64,000 nt of DNA from Roseimicrobium sp. ORNL1. GTDB taxonomy: Bacteria > Verrucomicrobiota > Verrucomicrobiia > Verrucomicrobiales > Verrucomicrobiaceae. Positions 1,220 to 62,322 of this stretch are shown here, in pieces. Numbering within the stretch: position 1 is the first letter of the stretch; each line of letters opens with the position of its first letter. Where the stretch lies: the NCBI RefSeq assembly GCF_011044495.1, contig NZ_CP049143.1, forward strand, positions 6,138,001 through 6,202,000. Direction: 5' to 3'. Both the position numbers and the translations under genes were made by a program. The notes below the pieces were generated by a model that did no database searches, had not been told where the DNA came from, and saw only the letters and a list, made by a program, of their open reading frames with translations.

Positions 1220-2134
1220 ATGTCCACGAAACCCACCCTTCTCATCCTCGCTGCCGGCATGGGCAGCCGTTACGGCGGTCTCAAGCAGCTCGACCCCATG
1301 GGACCCAACGGTGAAACCGTGCTGGATTACTCCGTCTTCGACGCCCTGCGCGCAGGCTTCGGCAAGGTGGTGTTCGTGATCCGCCGGGACTTCGAAGAAG
1401 AGTTCAAAACCAAGGTGGGCAGCCGCTTCGACAAGCACATCCCCGTGGAGTATGCCTTCCAGTCCATCACGGATCTGCCAGAAGGATTCACCGTGCCCGA
1501 GGGCCGCGTGAAACCCTGGGGCACCACGCACGCCGTGCTGGCGGCGGAAGAGCAGGTGAAGGAACCCTTCGCCATGATCAATGCGGATGACTTCTACGGT
1601 CAGGATGCCTTTGCAAAGCTCGCCGCGAACCTGGCCACGCTGAAGCCGGTGGATGGCCGCAAGCATTACTCCCTTGTCGGCTTCCAGCTCAAGAACACCC
1701 TCTCCGACCACGGCAGCGTGGCTCGTGGCGTGTGCACCAGCCACGAAGGCAAGCTCACCTCCGTGACGGAGATGACCAAAATCGTGAAGACGGACTCCGG
1801 CGCGCGCAACGAAGAGGATCCCGACAATCATATCGAACTCACCGGTCACGAACTCGTGAGCATGAACTTCTGGGGCTTCACCCCCGATGTGTTCCCGCAG
1901 CTCCGCGAAGCCTTCATCAATTTCCTCAAGAAGGAAGGCACCAGCCAGAAGTCCGAGTGCTACGTGCCCAAGGAAGTGGACCTCTTCATCAAGCAGGGCA
2001 CTGCGGACGTGGAAGTACTGCAGACCTCCAGCTCTTGGTTCGGAGTGACCTATCCCGAGGACAAGGAGATCGTGGTCGCCAGCATCAAGAAGCTCACGGA
2101 CGCCGGAGAATATCCTGCGCCGCTGTGGGGTTGA
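1220..2134 (+). CDS. NDP-sugar pyrophosphorylase-like nucleotidyltransferase
   Basis: 304 aa from the ATG at 1220. The frame stays open further upstream, but only the segment from MSTKPTLLILAAGMGSRYGG onward looks like protein. The N-terminus carries the nucleotidyltransferase signature LAAGMGSRYGGLKQL (residues 9-23), then GETVLDYSVFDA and a VKPWGTTHAVLAAEE stretch that resembles the NTP-transferase G-T-x-x-A motif. AMINADDFYG is the metal-binding region. The family activates sugar phosphates with NTPs for polysaccharide or cell-wall synthesis; the sugar cannot be assigned. There is no fused hexapeptide or kinase domain. The gene stands alone and is followed by a strong terminator at 2198-2230. 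Confidence 0.8.
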   Translation: MSTKPTLLILAAGMGSRYGGLKQLDPMGPNGETVLDYSVFDALRAGFGKVVFVIRRDFEEEFKTKVGSRFDKHIPVEYAFQSITDLPEGFTVPEGRVKPWGTTHAVLAAEEQVKEPFAMINADDFYGQDAFAKLAANLATLKPVDGRKHYSLVGFQLKNTLSDHGSVARGVCTSHEGKLTSVTEMTKIVKTDSGARNEEDPDNHIELTGHELVSMNFWGFTPDVFPQLREAFINFLKKEGTSQKSECYVPKEVDLFIKQGTADVEVLQTSSSWFGVTYPEDKEIVVASIKKLTDAGEYPAPLWG

Positions 2135-2197
2135 GACTAAGAGCGAGCTTCTGGTTTCGCCCTTGTCCGCACTGAAATAGTCAGATTAAGTTTTCGG

Positions 2198-2230
2198 AAG
2201 GCCTCCTCACACCACGTGAGGAGGCCTTTT
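2198..2230 (+). terminator. Rho-independent terminator
   Basis: A perfect 13-bp stem, AAGGCCTCCTCAC / GTGAGGAGGCCTT, surrounds a 5-nt loop and runs into TTTT. It lies 64 bp after the stop of the nucleotidyltransferase gene. Confidence 0.85.
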
Positions 2231-2301
2231 GCATTTAACTTTAACTGCACGTCTCGTGAGAAGAACCTCGCTGGTCATGGTGGAAACATCGACTCGCAAA
2301 T

Positions 2302-2630
2302 CACCTTGCGCGCAGCGCCTTGGAGTGCGTGTGCGAAGCACCGCTTTTGGTCTATGGCGACTCCTCTGGTCTATCATTCCGCGCACCAAATGAACCGGTA
2401 GGGGGCCGCTGCGTCGGCCTCCAAATTAAGTGGGCGGAGGCGGTGTGGAACTGTGTCGCGGCAAGCCTCTGACACCCGAACTCCGTCCCGCCTCCGCCCT
2501 CTCTTATCAGGGCACCGACGCAGCAGTGCCCTACCAGTTTATTTGGCGCGCAAAGTGATAAACCAGTGGTATCGCGACAGCCCCAAAGCGGTGCTTCGCA
2601 CACGCACTCCAAAGCGCTGCGCGCAAGGTG
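2302..2630. repeat. Giant imperfect palindrome, about 329 bp (element 1)
   Basis: This fills most of the 628-bp gap between 2134 and 2763. The left arm (2302-2465) starts CACCTTGCGCGCAGCG and the right arm (2467-2630) ends with its reverse complement. The outer 45 bases of each arm match almost perfectly; the inner parts agree in blocks such as GCTGCGTCGG and GGGCGGAGGCGG. The arms meet near 2466, so a transcript or single strand could form a hairpin of about 160 bp. A core with TTGGAGTG followed by ACCGCTTT recurs in the element at 29407-29622. No open frame inside resembles a transposase, so it could be a non-autonomous element or a REP-like cluster. Confidence 0.8.
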
Positions 2631-2650: not shown

Positions 2651-2688
2651 TCACGAGTCGTCCTGGCAAATCACGAGACGACTCGTGA
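2651..2688. repeat. Short perfect inverted repeat beside element 1
   Basis: TCACGAGTCGTC (2651-2662) and GACGACTCGTGA (2677-2688) form a perfect 12-bp stem with a 14-nt loop. It lies 20 bp outside the right end of the 329-bp palindrome. There is no T-run, so it is not a clear terminator. Confidence 0.6.
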
Positions 2689-2762: not shown

Positions 2763-3191
2763 CTATCGAGTCAGATCCCAAATATTCTCGTCTGGGGTCA
2801 ATAACACAACCTCCCCACCCTCCCAGTGTGGGTCATAAACTCTTTTGATCAAAACTTCGATTTCCAACCTGCCATCGGGTTCCGTGATGTCCGCATAGAT
2901 GAGCTTCAATGCCTGTCCGACTTCCGGCCACTGCAAGCGGCGCATGCAAAAATCCAGAACATGCACGCTCCGCTTGAAGTCACAGCACACCTTCGTCGTT
3001 TTTATTTCATCAACAACGCGAAGGAACCGATTCAGGTAATCACTCCGACGGACCAGATCTGCCTCCACGAGATTGCACAGGACCTCAAGCTTGGGCCTCA
3101 CCTTCTTGAGGTCCACCGACAGTTTGTTCCGATACAAGCGCTCCAACTCTCCGAAGACACCGTCGAAGTGCTCAAGGATGGTTCTGTGCAT
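2763..3191 (-). CDS. Hypothetical protein, 142 aa
   Basis: I do not recognise the family. The protein is mostly helical by composition and charged. It has an N-terminal heptad-like stretch (MHRTILEHFDGVFGELERLY, then LSVDLKKVRPKLEVLCNLV), a cysteine pair (KVCCDFKRSVHVLDFC) in the middle and an acidic end (LLTPDENIWDLTR). There is no signal peptide or membrane segment. It lies 70 bp downstream of tsaB on the same strand and could be the last gene of that cluster. Its base composition is noticeably less GC-rich than its neighbours, and it sits next to the repeat region, so it may have been acquired. Coding status is likely but not certain. Confidence 0.5.
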   Translation of the reverse strand: MHRTILEHFDGVFGELERLYRNKLSVDLKKVRPKLEVLCNLVEADLVRRSDYLNRFLRVVDEIKTTKVCCDFKRSVHVLDFCMRRLQWPEVGQALKLIYADITEPDGRLEIEVLIKRVYDPHWEGGEVVLLTPDENIWDLTR

Positions 3192-3261: not shown

Positions 3262-3924
3262 TCAAGCCCCGGTCCCACGAGGCTTCGGCTGCGTCACATA
3301 CGCTTCCGCAAGATACACAGGCTCCAATGCCCACCTTGCCAGTGCAGCAATCCCATCATCCGTCATCCCCGCAGCAATCTCCGCAAGCCCCCTCGCCGAG
3401 GGCATGCCACAAGATACCCCCTCCAGCTCAAGCGGCGGCTTCGCGTCATAGGTATACCACGGTGTATCCACTCCTCTTGCAGCATGCTTCTCGCGAAACG
3501 CCTCCGCATCCATCGTGGTCACGGCATCCACCAGTGCGCCGTTGCGCACCTCCGCCACGAAATACTTCCCGCGACGCGCATCGCCGCACACGACAAATCT
3601 CTCCCCGCTCACTGCACCGTCCACCTCCGGTGCCAGCACGGAAGGCAGGCCCACCAGCGGCACGCCACGCGACATGGCCACGCCCTGCGCTGCGGCAATG
3701 CCAATACGCACCCCGGTATATGAGGCAGGCCCAGTACCCACGACAATGACACGCAGGTCATCCCCGCACTTCTCCAGTGCTTCACGCAACGGTTCAAACA
3801 ACTGCGAATTGTGCGAGCGCTCGGACGAGAAGCTGTGCTCGTACACCACCGTCGCGTCTCCCCTCACCACGGCCACGCTGCCGCGCGGGGTGGAAGTTTC
3901 AATGGCAAGGACACAGTCAGGCAT
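3262..3924 (-). CDS. tsaB: tRNA threonylcarbamoyladenosine protein TsaB
   Basis: 220 aa from the ATG at 3924; the frame extends 21 nt further to a TTG, which I think less likely. TsaB is an ASKHA-fold partner of TsaD and TsaE in forming t6A at position 37 of ANN-decoding tRNAs. Characteristic segments are VLAIETSTPRGSVAVV at the N-terminus, HNSQLFEPL (residues about 38-46) and the strongly conserved GTGPASYTGVRIGIAAAQG. The rest is the weaker family tail, with DARRGKYFVAEV. It lies 30 bp after tsaE and in the same run as thiL, an arrangement seen in other bacteria. It probably has no catalytic role of its own and acts by dimerising with TsaD. Confidence 0.9.
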   Translation of the reverse strand: MPDCVLAIETSTPRGSVAVVRGDATVVYEHSFSSERSHNSQLFEPLREALEKCGDDLRVIVVGTGPASYTGVRIGIAAAQGVAMSRGVPLVGLPSVLAPEVDGAVSGERFVVCGDARRGKYFVAEVRNGALVDAVTTMDAEAFREKHAARGVDTPWYTYDAKPPLELEGVSCGMPSARGLAEIAAGMTDDGIAALARWALEPVYLAEAYVTQPKPRGTGA

Positions 3925-3954
3925 GGAAGGAAGGCTCAAACTCAAAACGAAACA

Positions 3955-29406: not shown

Positions 29407-29622
29407 GCTTTGCGTCTTGGAGTGAGGTGGCAAGCGTTAGCGCGACACCGCTTTGAACGAAGCCCACATCGTGGCAAAGCGCTAGATGCCTGTCAGCACC
29501 AAAAGCCCAGCCTTCATAAGGTCTACAGCGTTCGAATGACAGGGAAGATTAGGGCGTCTCATTCCTCCGCTCAAAGCGGTGTCGCGCCTTAGCGCTTGCC
29601 ACCGCACTCCAAGACGCAAAGC
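29407..29622. repeat. Palindromic repeat element 2, about 216 bp
   Basis: This occupies most of the 389-bp gap after bioA; nothing else was seen in that gap. The arms are 29407-29456 and 29571-29622, starting GCTTTGCGTCTTGGAGTG and ending with the reverse complement, with three or four mismatches or indels over 50 bases. The 114-nt middle has its own weak stem (CCTGTCA / TGACAGG). The arms carry GGTGGCAAGCG and GACACCGCTTT, and they share TTGGAGTG and ACCGCTTT with the 329-bp element at 2302-2630. No protein is encoded. It is likely a non-autonomous or REP-type intergenic repeat family. Confidence 0.8.
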
Positions 29623-35315: not shown

Positions 35316-36596
35316 TCAGCCCAGGCCGCTCAGCACCGACTGCATGATGCCAAGGCCTTCGCGGGCTTCGGCTTCAGTCGTGTTCATCGGGGCGAGCCAG
35401 CGAATGACCTTGGGTCCGGCGGGTACGACGAGGAGTCCGGCATCCATGAGCAGTTTTGCTACCCATATGGAGGGCAGCTTGCCGCTGGCCTTGAAGGCTT
35501 CGTTGGCCTCGATGAGCGGGGTGTTCAGCTCGAAACCGATCATGAAACCAAAGGCGCGCACTTCCGACAGCGCCGGCAGTTTCCAGGCGAGCGCCTCACT
35601 GGCGATGAATGCACCCATGGTCTTCGCGTGGGCCGCGAGGTTGTCGCGCAAGATCACGTTGAGTGTGGCCATGCCAGTGGCGCAGGCGAGCGGTGAACCG
35701 CCATACGTCGTGCCATGTGTGCCGGCGCTCAGGAGATTGCACAGTCGAGTGCCGGCTGCGTCACCCACGGCGCGATCCCGCGCCCAGAAGGAACCGAGCG
35801 GATAACCGCTGCCGATGGACTTCGCCCAACTGATGGCGTCCGGCAGGATTTCATCACCGGGGACAATGCTGCGCCATCCGGCAAGTTCACCGGTACGCCC
35901 CAGGCCGCACTGCACTTCATCCAGGAGCAGCAGCAGATCATGCTGGTCGCGCAGTTGAGCCGCGACACGGAGGAACTCGGGCGTCACCGGATTCACACCA
36001 CTTTCACCCTGCACGGGTTCGAGCAGGATGGCGATGGTGTTTTCATTCACTGCAGCCTTGAGCTCCGCGACATCGTTGAAGGTCACGTATTTGAAACCGG
36101 GCACCAGGGGGCCGAAGCCACCGTGGATCTTCTCCTGCGCGGTCGCCGTCATGGTGGCGAAGGTCCTGCCGTGGAAGCTGCCGGTGCAGGTGATGATTTC
36201 ATAGCGCGGTGAGCCATCCGCCTTGGGCCGGGCGACGCCGAACTTCCTCGCGAGCTTGATGAGGCCTTCATTCGCCTCGGCGCCGCTGTTGGAGAAGAAG
36301 CACTTGCCGGGAATGCCCAGCACGTCCTCCACGAGCATCTTTGCCAGCTCACCTTGCTGACGGATGTTGTACCAGTTGGAGACGTGGATCAGTGTCGCAG
36401 CCTGCTGGCTGATGGCCTGCACCACCTCCGGGTGGCAATGACCCAGCGGGCACACGGCCACACCACCGGCGAAGTCGAGGTACTCGCGGCCGTCCCTGTC
36501 CCAGACGCGTGCGCCCTGGCCGCGCTCGGGCCAGAAGTCGTACCGTCCGTAGTTGGGCATGACGTATTGAGAAATGAGAGAATCGGAATCAGACAT
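35316..36596 (-). CDS. argD: Acetylornithine aminotransferase ArgD
   Basis: 426 aa, class III PLP aminotransferase converting N-acetylglutamate semialdehyde to N-acetylornithine. Family features are YLDFAGGVAVCPLGHCHPEVV (seen around residues 41-61), FFSNSGAEANEGLIKLARKF (about 99), GSFHGRTFATMTATAQEK, LEPVQGESGVNPVTPEFL, LLLDEVQCGLGRTGELAG with the PLP Asp, and ISWAKSIGSGYPLGSF with the PLP-Lys. Assignment as ArgD rather than another ornithine aminotransferase rests on the argB, argJ and argC neighbours. An HNH endonuclease gene lies between it and argB. Confidence 0.92.
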   Translation of the reverse strand: MSDSDSLISQYVMPNYGRYDFWPERGQGARVWDRDGREYLDFAGGVAVCPLGHCHPEVVQAISQQAATLIHVSNWYNIRQQGELAKMLVEDVLGIPGKCFFSNSGAEANEGLIKLARKFGVARPKADGSPRYEIITCTGSFHGRTFATMTATAQEKIHGGFGPLVPGFKYVTFNDVAELKAAVNENTIAILLEPVQGESGVNPVTPEFLRVAAQLRDQHDLLLLLDEVQCGLGRTGELAGWRSIVPGDEILPDAISWAKSIGSGYPLGSFWARDRAVGDAAGTRLCNLLSAGTHGTTYGGSPLACATGMATLNVILRDNLAAHAKTMGAFIASEALAWKLPALSEVRAFGFMIGFELNTPLIEANEAFKASGKLPSIWVAKLLMDAGLLVVPAGPKVIRWLAPMNTTEAEAREGLGIMQSVLSGLG

Positions 36597-60046: not shown

Positions 60047-60658
60047 TCACTTCCGCCTTCCCGCGCTGCTCCACGGCCAGTCCTCCGCCTTCTTCACCAG
60101 ACCCGCCTTCACCGGGTTTTCCTCAATGTAGCGCACCACCTTGGCGTAGTGCTCCTCATCGCGAATGTACCGGTCATGGTACTCACGCTGCCAGAAGCGG
60201 CCCCGGCGCCGTACGAGCTTGTTTGCCTCCTTCGAAGTGAAGCTCTTCAGAGACTGCAACACGCCGGCCAGAGGCCAGCGCTCCCAGGGCTCGAGCACGA
60301 AATGTACGTGATTGGGCATGACACACCACGAGAGGAGACGGTAGCGGTCTTCATCGAAATACTGGAGAGCATCTTGCACCATGGTCGCGACACGCGGCTG
60401 CCTAAGCCAGCACTCTCCATGGCCAGCGTCGAGGTAGGCATCGATGCGCTTGCGGCATTCCAAATCTCCCTCGCCCGGAGGTAAATTCGCCAGCTCCAGC
60501 CGCCAGCGATCGAGGAGCACCTTGGGCATGGCATCTCCCAGGCGGATGGTCAGGGATTGGACCTGTCCTGCCTTGTCAAAATGCGGGAGATATCCCCGTG
60601 AGTACCAGCCTTCACCATCTGGCAAAGGTCGACGTTCACGACTGAAACGCGTCGTCAT
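60047..60658 (-). CDS. REP-associated tyrosine transposase (RAYT)
   Basis: 203 aa from the ATG at 60658; the frame continues upstream to 60808 but that part is not conserved-looking. It is a Y1/HUH-type single-domain transposase. The HUH pair is in WCVMPNHVHFVLEP (residues about 111-124), the likely catalytic Tyr lies in FWQREYHDRYIRDEEHY (155-171), and VRYIEENPVKAGLV (176-189) with WPWSSA is a RAYT signature. There are no inverted terminal repeats around the gene; RAYTs act on REP sequences instead. Residues 123-133 (EPWERWPLAGV) are encoded by a REP copy. It interrupts the heme operon and is on the opposite strand. Confidence 0.9.
   Translation of the reverse strand: MTTRFSRERRPLPDGEGWYSRGYLPHFDKAGQVQSLTIRLGDAMPKVLLDRWRLELANLPPGEGDLECRKRIDAYLDAGHGECWLRQPRVATMVQDALQYFDEDRYRLLSWCVMPNHVHFVLEPWERWPLAGVLQSLKSFTSKEANKLVRRRGRFWQREYHDRYIRDEEHYAKVVRYIEENPVKAGLVKKAEDWPWSSAGRRK
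60261..60291. repeat. REP-like repeat, copy C, inside the RAYT gene
   Basis: 31 bp identical to copy A. It lies wholly inside the transposase coding sequence and, read on the gene strand, encodes the residues just after the HUH motif. The adjoining ATA of copies A and B is not present here. Confidence 0.85.
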
Positions 60659-60795
60659 GCGATTTTTTCCATGAGAGTAGCTACGATCGATTTCCTTGCA
60701 AGATTTCACCCTGAGAGGAAGGCCACCGTTCCGTACTTGCGGGGCGTATTTTCGTGAGTGATGGAGTAGATTCCCGTTCCAAGCCAATTCCTCGC

Positions 60796-62322
60796 ATGCC
60801 TTCCTCATCCTCCAAATCCTCGAAACGCGGCATCTGCTACCTCGTAGGCGCGGGCCCGGGCGATCCCGGACTGCTCACGCTGCGCGGCAAGGAGTGCATC
60901 GAACTCGCGGATGTGGTGGTGTATGACTACCTGAGCAATGCCGACTTCCTCCGCTTTGCGAAGCCGGATGCGGAGAAGATCTATGTGGGCAAGAAGTCCA
61001 AGGATCACACGCTCTCCCAGGAAGGCATCAACAAGCTCATCGTGGAGAAAGCGCTCGCAGGCAAGGTGGTCACGCGCTTGAAGGGCGGCGACCCCGTGTT
61101 GTTCGGCCGCGGCGCGGAAGAAGCACAGGAACTCTCAGACGCCGGTGTGGCCTTTGAAATCGTGCCGGGCGTGACCTCCGCAATCGCAGGTCCGGCGTAT
61201 GCAGGCATCCCCGTGACGCATCGCTCGCATTGCTCGCAGGTCACCATCTTCACCGGCCACGAGGATCCCACCAAGCCGGAGAGCTCACTCGACTACGCGA
61301 AGATTGCCCAAGCTGACGGCACCAAGGTCATGCTCATGGGAGTGGAGCGCATCGGTGATATCGCGGCCAAGTTGATCGAACACGGCGCGAAGCCGGCCAC
61401 GCCGGTGGCTCTGACGCGCTGGGCTACGACCGGCAGGCAGCAAACCATCGAAGGCACGCTCGCGACGATTGCCCAGGTGATCATCGACACAGGTTTCAAG
61501 GCACCCGCGGTATGTGTCATCGGCAGCGTGGTGCTGGAGCGCGACAAGCTGAACTGGTTTGAAAATCGCCCCCTCTTCGGCAAGCGCTTCGTGGTCACCC
61601 GCACGCGCACGCAAGCAGGCGGGCTGAGCAAGCAGCTCTCCGAACTCGGGGCGAACGTCATCGAGATCCCCACCATCCGTATTGAGCCGCCGGAGGATCT
61701 GAAAGCCTTTGCGCAACTCGTGATGGACTCGCACACCTATGACTGGCTGGTCTTCACCAGTCCGAACGGCGTGGAGAAGTTTTTCGATATTTTTTACAAA
61801 CTCTACTCGGATGCCCGCAGCATCGGCGGAGTGAAGATTGCCGCCATCGGACCCGGCACGGCGGATAAGATCAAGCAGTACCACCTCGCGGTGGATCTGC
61901 TTCCCGAGAAATTCGTGGCGGAGGGTCTGGTGAAGGCCTTCAAGGAACAGGAGATCGAGAACCAGACGGTCCTGTGGGTGAAAGCCGAGCAGACCCGTGA
62001 GATCCTTGCCAATGAACTTACCGGCATGCGGGCCATCGTGGATGAAGCCATCGCCTATCGCACGGTGCCAGAGGATGCGAACCACGAAGCCATCGTGCGC
62101 TTCAAGGAAGAAGGCGCGGATGTCATCACTTTCACCAGTAGCTCCACGGTCGAGCATTTCCTCGATCTGGGATTAACGCTGCCGGAAGGGATCAAGATTG
62201 CCAGCATTGGCCCCATCACCTCCGAGACGCTCACCAAGCACGGACTGAAGATCGATATCGAAGCAGAAGAACATTCGATTCCAGGCCTCGTGCGCGCAAT
62301 TCAGGATCATTATGCGCAGTAA
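60796..62322 (+). CDS. cobA-hemD: Uroporphyrinogen-III methyltransferase/synthase fusion
   Basis: 508 aa from the ATG at 60796. Residues about 12-255 are a SUMT/CobA methyltransferase: CYLVGAGPGDPGLLTLRGKE, ADVVVYDYL, VVTRLKGGDPVLFGRGAEEA, PGVTSAIAGPAYAGIPVTHR and LMGVERI. Residues about 265-505 are uroporphyrinogen-III synthase (HemD): FVVTRTRTQAGGLSKQLSEL, DWLVFTSPNGVEKFF and DVITFTSSSTVEHFL. One protein thus closes the uro'gen ring and then methylates it towards siroheme or cobalamin. The fusion is known in other phyla. It belongs to the hem operon but is separated from hemC by the RAYT gene, so it may need its own promoter. Confidence 0.94.
   Translation: MPSSSSKSSKRGICYLVGAGPGDPGLLTLRGKECIELADVVVYDYLSNADFLRFAKPDAEKIYVGKKSKDHTLSQEGINKLIVEKALAGKVVTRLKGGDPVLFGRGAEEAQELSDAGVAFEIVPGVTSAIAGPAYAGIPVTHRSHCSQVTIFTGHEDPTKPESSLDYAKIAQADGTKVMLMGVERIGDIAAKLIEHGAKPATPVALTRWATTGRQQTIEGTLATIAQVIIDTGFKAPAVCVIGSVVLERDKLNWFENRPLFGKRFVVTRTRTQAGGLSKQLSELGANVIEIPTIRIEPPEDLKAFAQLVMDSHTYDWLVFTSPNGVEKFFDIFYKLYSDARSIGGVKIAAIGPGTADKIKQYHLAVDLLPEKFVAEGLVKAFKEQEIENQTVLWVKAEQTREILANELTGMRAIVDEAIAYRTVPEDANHEAIVRFKEEGADVITFTSSSTVEHFLDLGLTLPEGIKIASIGPITSETLTKHGLKIDIEAEEHSIPGLVRAIQDHYAQ

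Follow-up and report, generated by a model that had tools for sequence, protein, structure and literature searches.

REP doublets (REPINs) and the RAYT (TnpA-REP) genes associated with them are the known systems that come closest to the locus reported here. In the portions of three papers that were available (PMC3116915, PMC3686654, PMC8266576), they are described as short palindromic cores arranged in inverted pairs between genes, with copies of the repeat on either side of the gene for a cognate Y1 transposase, and with conserved arms around a variable loop; the present locus appears to share these traits. The canonical REP tag is given as GT[AG]G in the available text of PMC6006769. Excerpts of the work of Di Nocera et al. 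(PMC3733652) report that Pseudomonas has REPtrons, TIRtrons, “double inverted repeats”, and REPs linked to stem-loops unrelated to them, and that GTAG repeats are present in one Verrucomicrobia species. Many-copy REPs that adjoin unrelated stem-loops, and Y1 genes lying within long inverted repeats, are common to that system and to this one. However, the Pseudomonas REPs joined to stem-loops are, in the same excerpts, degenerate GTAG-1 REPs, whereas here the doublet is otherwise normal and encloses a palindrome concentrically. A further likeness, at the level of description, is to TnpA-Y1 subclass 2.6 and class 3 with their atypical REPs (PMC6006769, in part), where the Y1 genes are flanked by atypical, genome-repeated secondary structures. 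Finally, IS110 elements that insert site-specifically in REPs are described in parts of PMC1525189 and PMC11208160.

The locus differs from REPINs in its tag (TTGG/GGAG instead of GT[AG]G), in an arm of about 49 bp, in an outer box at a fixed distance, and in the palindrome that occupies its loop. It is probably a REP doublet, REPIN-like and non-autonomous, of a RAYT family, with a second palindromic element in its loop. A literature search of partial coverage found no published report of its arm repeat.

A 329-bp palindrome between two genes

The window, a stretch of 64,000 nucleotides (positions 6138001-6202000 of the 7.96-Mb single-contig genome G000), was compared with a sister species of the same genus (G001), with three members of the same family (G002, G012, and G018), and with a member of another family of the same order (G060). 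An earlier note had described an imperfect palindrome of 329 bp at 2302-2630, and both repeat search and folding confirmed it. The sequence is 78% identical to its own reverse complement. Its arms (2302-2417 and 2515-2630) are 116 nt long and 84% complementary without gaps, and a further inner arm pair is found at 2429-2443/2488-2502. The region 2290-2645 is predicted to fold into a single continuous hairpin of -245.1 kcal/mol; 100 dinucleotide shuffles gave a mean of -134.4 (sd 4.9, z -22.4), and none of them equalled the native fold. The near-perfect pairing claimed for the outer 45 or so bases holds, with the outer ~46 bp matching best (96-100% against other copies), and the ORFs that cross the palindrome are short, overlapping, and mechanical, in line with the view that no plausible protein is encoded. 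Only the extent was drawn too narrowly: matching boxes stand outside it at 2249-2259 and 2671-2681. Upstream lies a nucleotidyltransferase-like gene (1220-2134, forward strand), while the downstream side carries, on the opposite strand, an ORF that matches no Pfam family (2763-3191) and then a TsaD-family gene (3262-3945).

The near-perfect outer arms could suggest an assembly artefact, namely a read through a hairpin, which the earlier note had named as one outcome that would undo its claim. This can be excluded in practice. Overall, roughly every fifth or sixth base differs between the arms, and part of the composite stands elsewhere: the first 113 bp of the palindrome, about one third of it, recur at 2660333-2660445 with 89% identity. 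Since they do, the composite in the window either arose twice or is older than at least one duplication. The components also recur independently in two genomes. The palindrome is nested mobile-type DNA, neither a gene nor an assembly error, and it is a composite, in which a REP doublet on the outside surrounds a palindromic repeat, B, that is unrelated to it.

The outer arms, their boxes, and their family

The left arm (2302-2350, forward strand) is a REP-type repeat of the form CACCTTGCGCGCAGCGCCTTGGAGTGCG-hairpin-CGCTTTTGG, with matches of 96-100% to many dispersed copies, and it also flanks a RAYT gene in G001. Repeat search and genome matches identify the right arm (2582-2630, reverse strand) as its inverted copy. 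A REP, TTGGAGTGCG-hairpin-CGCTTT, forms the core of the arm. No canonical GT[AG]G tag was found 5' of the hairpin; the letters GGA[GC]T are present in all 25 distinct cores compared, where the selecting pattern fixes them, and a preceding TT is seen in the arms of this family, referred to here as A. In these 25 cores, which were picked by hand and restricted to 25 or 26 nt (a choice that excludes longer stems and the A-type core, longer by one base), 99.3% of cells are paired and 26 cells show compensated changes. None of 500 shuffles reached this number, so the core stem has been kept, as in REPs.

The earlier note had proposed a genome-wide search with the arms, and this search revealed a dispersed family with 124 matches in its own genome. 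The loci fetched from this genome contain 82 matches to the 49-bp arm, and the pattern TTGGAGTGCG-N-CGCTTT gives 85 matches in the genome against none when reversed. Facing arms form 27 pairs, which span 202-343 bp with both arms included; a crude ORF test places 23 of the 27 clear of any long coding-like ORF. Similarity is slightly higher between the two arms of one pair than between arms taken from different pairs (0.925 vs. 0.912, permutation p 0.007). The interiors are usually 106-141 nt long and vary in sequence between lineages: 33 of them, including four from G001, fall into 18 mutually dissimilar clusters, one with 11 members. The family is unevenly distributed, with 37 of 58 places (a set assembled by hand from earlier results, in which neighbouring units are not independent) massed at 2.35-2.91 Mb, in 7% of the chromosome. 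Clustering at the replication terminus was considered and rejected; the cumulative-skew peak lies near 3.3-3.5 Mb.

Each arm in the window is accompanied by an outer box. The left box, ACGTCTCGTGA (2249-2259, forward strand), lies 42 bp outside its arm, beyond a linker of variable sequence (2260-2301); the right box, TCGTCTCGTGA (2671-2681, reverse strand), has one mismatch and lies 40 bp outside its arm, beyond the linker at 2631-2670. Across the family, this 11-bp box, counted beside an arm at up to two mismatches to ACGTCTCGTGA, stands 40-44 bp outside 75 of the 82 arms, and the linker is 41 or 42 bp long in 57 of these 75. Linker sequence varies and is no more alike within doublets than between them (0.395 vs. 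0.421). Exact matches to the box number 64 in the genome, compared with three for the pattern reversed, and most of the 27 box places in additional loci have an arm (those without are L098, L106, L111, and both of L113). Outside the genus, a search of a genome contig collection, from which close relatives are perhaps missing, gave 18 stretches with box, linker, and arm, against about 17 by chance (a rough estimate), and the one match in Verrucomicrobia that was inspected there had no arm.

Two further observations concern these flanks. Some A copies (L047, L051, L061, L099, and L103) have a further repeat, C (GTGCGTCAGGTTAA), at about 22 bp beyond the box, on both sides in L047; as a candidate for the true element end it was rejected, being found at only 15 places at up to one mismatch and missing from the copy in the window. 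Moreover, L095 (769258) and L108 (2995741) are box-linker-CACCTTGCGC hairpins from which the entire interior is gone, as hairpin slippage would leave them.

A box held at a distance of 40-44 bp from the arm on either side, its 64 exact occurrences against three in the reversed control, and interiors unrelated between lineages are also what could be seen in a classical MITE, in which the long terminal inverted repeats would derive from a DDE transposon, the box would be the tip, and arm and box would be two transposase-binding sites four helical turns apart. This explanation is unlikely, however. Between A arms, a RAYT gene was the sole gene found, and not a DDE transposase gene, in some lineages homology runs on beyond the box, and no target duplication was seen in the copies read by eye. 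Transposition itself was not observed: when relatives were examined for empty sites, as the earlier note had proposed, neither of the two loci compared showed a clean one, and at the counterpart of the window locus in G001 the element is missing and the whole intergene is replaced by other DNA.

The A arms have themselves been targets of insertion. An IS110-family element of 1748 bp is present in two genome copies that are identical over their full length (L051 266-2013, at G000:2481965-2483712, and L046, at about G000:7118736-7120483). Both are inserted at the same point of the arm core, after CTTGGAG and before AGTGCG, and they resemble the described REP-inserting elements in this site-specific use of one position in a REP core. 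The encoded protein passes the NCBIfam cut-off for the IS110 RNA-guided transposase, and no guide match of at least seven bases to the target was found in the element's ends. The target sequence presumably differs from those of the known REP-inserting IS110 elements.

RAYT genes beside the arms

The link between the arms and a transposase was found through G060, in which an A-like arm pair adjoins a gene for a REP-associated tyrosine transposase (RAYT). When 96 genomes were searched with this protein, relatives were found in 50. The core GGA[GC]TGC-stem-GCTTT is present within 600 bp of 40 of 44 RAYT genes in the order of the window, and on both sides of 32, against two of the 44 loci for the reversed core. 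These 44 loci include three genes counted twice (L284/L293, L285/L298, and L286/L299); 14 of them (13 positive) were picked by hand, some since arms had been noticed beside them, and the other 30, returned by search score, contain 27 positives, including the query itself.

The most direct case is found in G001 at L287, where A arms at 847-912 and 1601-1666 (87.9% identical when inverted) bracket an intact RAYT gene (G001 C1:698719-699258) with the HYH motif and no internal stop. Its protein scores 93.1 with the NCBIfam model for the REP-associated tyrosine transposase (cut-off 80) and matches PDB 4er8, a solved TnpA-REP chain, with an E value of 5.6e-7. The outer box is missing at this copy; the best match has four mismatches and lies at another distance. 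This lack of a box at the RAYT-carrying copy counts against the REP-doublet reading. In G000 itself, an A-flanked RAYT gene was not found; two RAYT genes (L288 and L289) are flanked there by arms of a related type whose stem is longer, and the protein of L288 narrowly passes the NCBIfam cut-off (82.5 vs. 80). As separate observations, the window contains a lone REP core of this longer-stem type (29573-29612, reverse strand) and a RAYT-like gene (60047-60808, reverse strand, 253 aa; NCBIfam score 99.9 vs. 80).

A link to the 17 Y1_Tnp genes found first in the genome was tried and rejected, with none of the 17 showing GGAGTGC..GCTTT, a slightly stricter core than the one used for the 44 loci, in the fetched flanks. 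This negative seemed to speak against RAYT, but G060 then led to a more divergent RAYT group, whose scores with the Pfam model are close to the cut-off or under it. It was also observed that 16 of these 17 genes (L141-L157) have a TIRtron-like setting, with inverted repeats of about 30-250 bp on either side.

The earlier note had offered a paired REP cluster and a non-autonomous mobile element as alternatives. Taken together, they come close to the truth for the outer layer, given the arm family, the flanking of RAYT genes, and the covariation of the core; the composite nature of the palindrome was missed. In the proposed mechanism, A arms would spread as single-stranded hairpin substrates that are cut and joined by RAYT acting in trans.

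The inner palindrome and its nesting

The loop of the doublet is filled by B, an independent palindromic repeat of 229 bp (2352-2580, edges approximate), for which two alignments were made. Copies of B, or parts of it, stand at 35909, 2428716, 2593215, 2820754, 4753419, 4757101, and 5034733 in G000, and G001 has 46 matches on both strands. No match was obtained in G002, G012, and G018 at the search threshold used. A candidate mobiliser was sought by tblastn of 21 Y1 ORFs against 37 B loci, a set in which one ORF (L144) was in the wrong frame and some loci were present twice on opposite strands, and only one match of 29 residues was found. The best-conserved core of B (GGTAGGGGGCCGCTGCG ... CCCTACC) lies at 2397-2535, and in an alignment of 15 sequences, 93.5% of its cells are paired in the hairpin.

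This pairing, together with the very stable predicted fold and the intergenic position, might point to a functional RNA or to a transcription-termination structure of the flanking genes. Such a role is very improbable. The upstream gene has an intrinsic-terminator-like hairpin of its own, at 2195-2231 (forward strand) and separate from the element; no promoter-like site was found at the locus; no Rfam family reached its gathering score (best 48.8 vs. 168); and the element is missing at the orthologous place in G001. Because the covariation of B hardly exceeds that of shuffles (36-46 of 500 reach it), no RNA function is claimed for it, and the suggestion that the palindrome is the source of a long structured RNA was rejected as unsupported.

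The nesting is rare within the family. A palindrome is found in the interior of two of the 27 doublets, that of the window, with an interior of 233 nt (z -13.5), and that of L056, with one of 247 nt (z -11.4), whereas the other 25 interiors fold like shuffled sequences (z -2.5 to +1.9); these z-scores refer to simple base shuffles. The interior of L056 contains another REP-like palindrome, D, which is likewise found in L127 of G001. A related arrangement exists at a convergent gene pair around 2118993, where G000 has an A element and G001 an A remnant, and where a D-like, REP-type palindrome, degenerate and read by eye, lies between the A parts of the G001 counterpart.

Under the preferred reading, a RAYT-family doublet with a second element in its loop, B would have been inserted into the loop of an A doublet. 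Paired arms would leave the loop single-stranded and open to insertion, so that one palindrome would come to lie concentrically in another. Insertion of B into the loop would fit the use of single-stranded intermediates by IS200/IS605 relatives (described in the available part of PMC6006769). Given the few cases, the nesting may also have arisen from the chance meeting of intergenic repeats. A bolder reading is possible but rather doubtful: A could be a genus-restricted, RAYT-derived element to which an outer recognition site was added (the 11-bp box, which stands 41-42 bp, or four helical turns, out from each REP arm), with its family massed in one 0.56-Mb stretch and its loop a preferred landing place for other palindromes, so that palindromes grow concentrically. 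If the element has a role at present, it is simply as a repeat in the space that separates two genes.

Several features give the locus a wider meaning. An abundant palindromic repeat is tied here to a likely transposase in an order for which the literature found, as far as the accessible part of PMC3733652 goes, showed only GTAG repeats in one species. The core is of REP type and lacks the GTAG tag, yet it displays strong covariation in its stem. The box at fixed spacing is a concrete and unusual feature of the A family. Finally, the nested copies provide a testable idea for the origin of very long palindromes.
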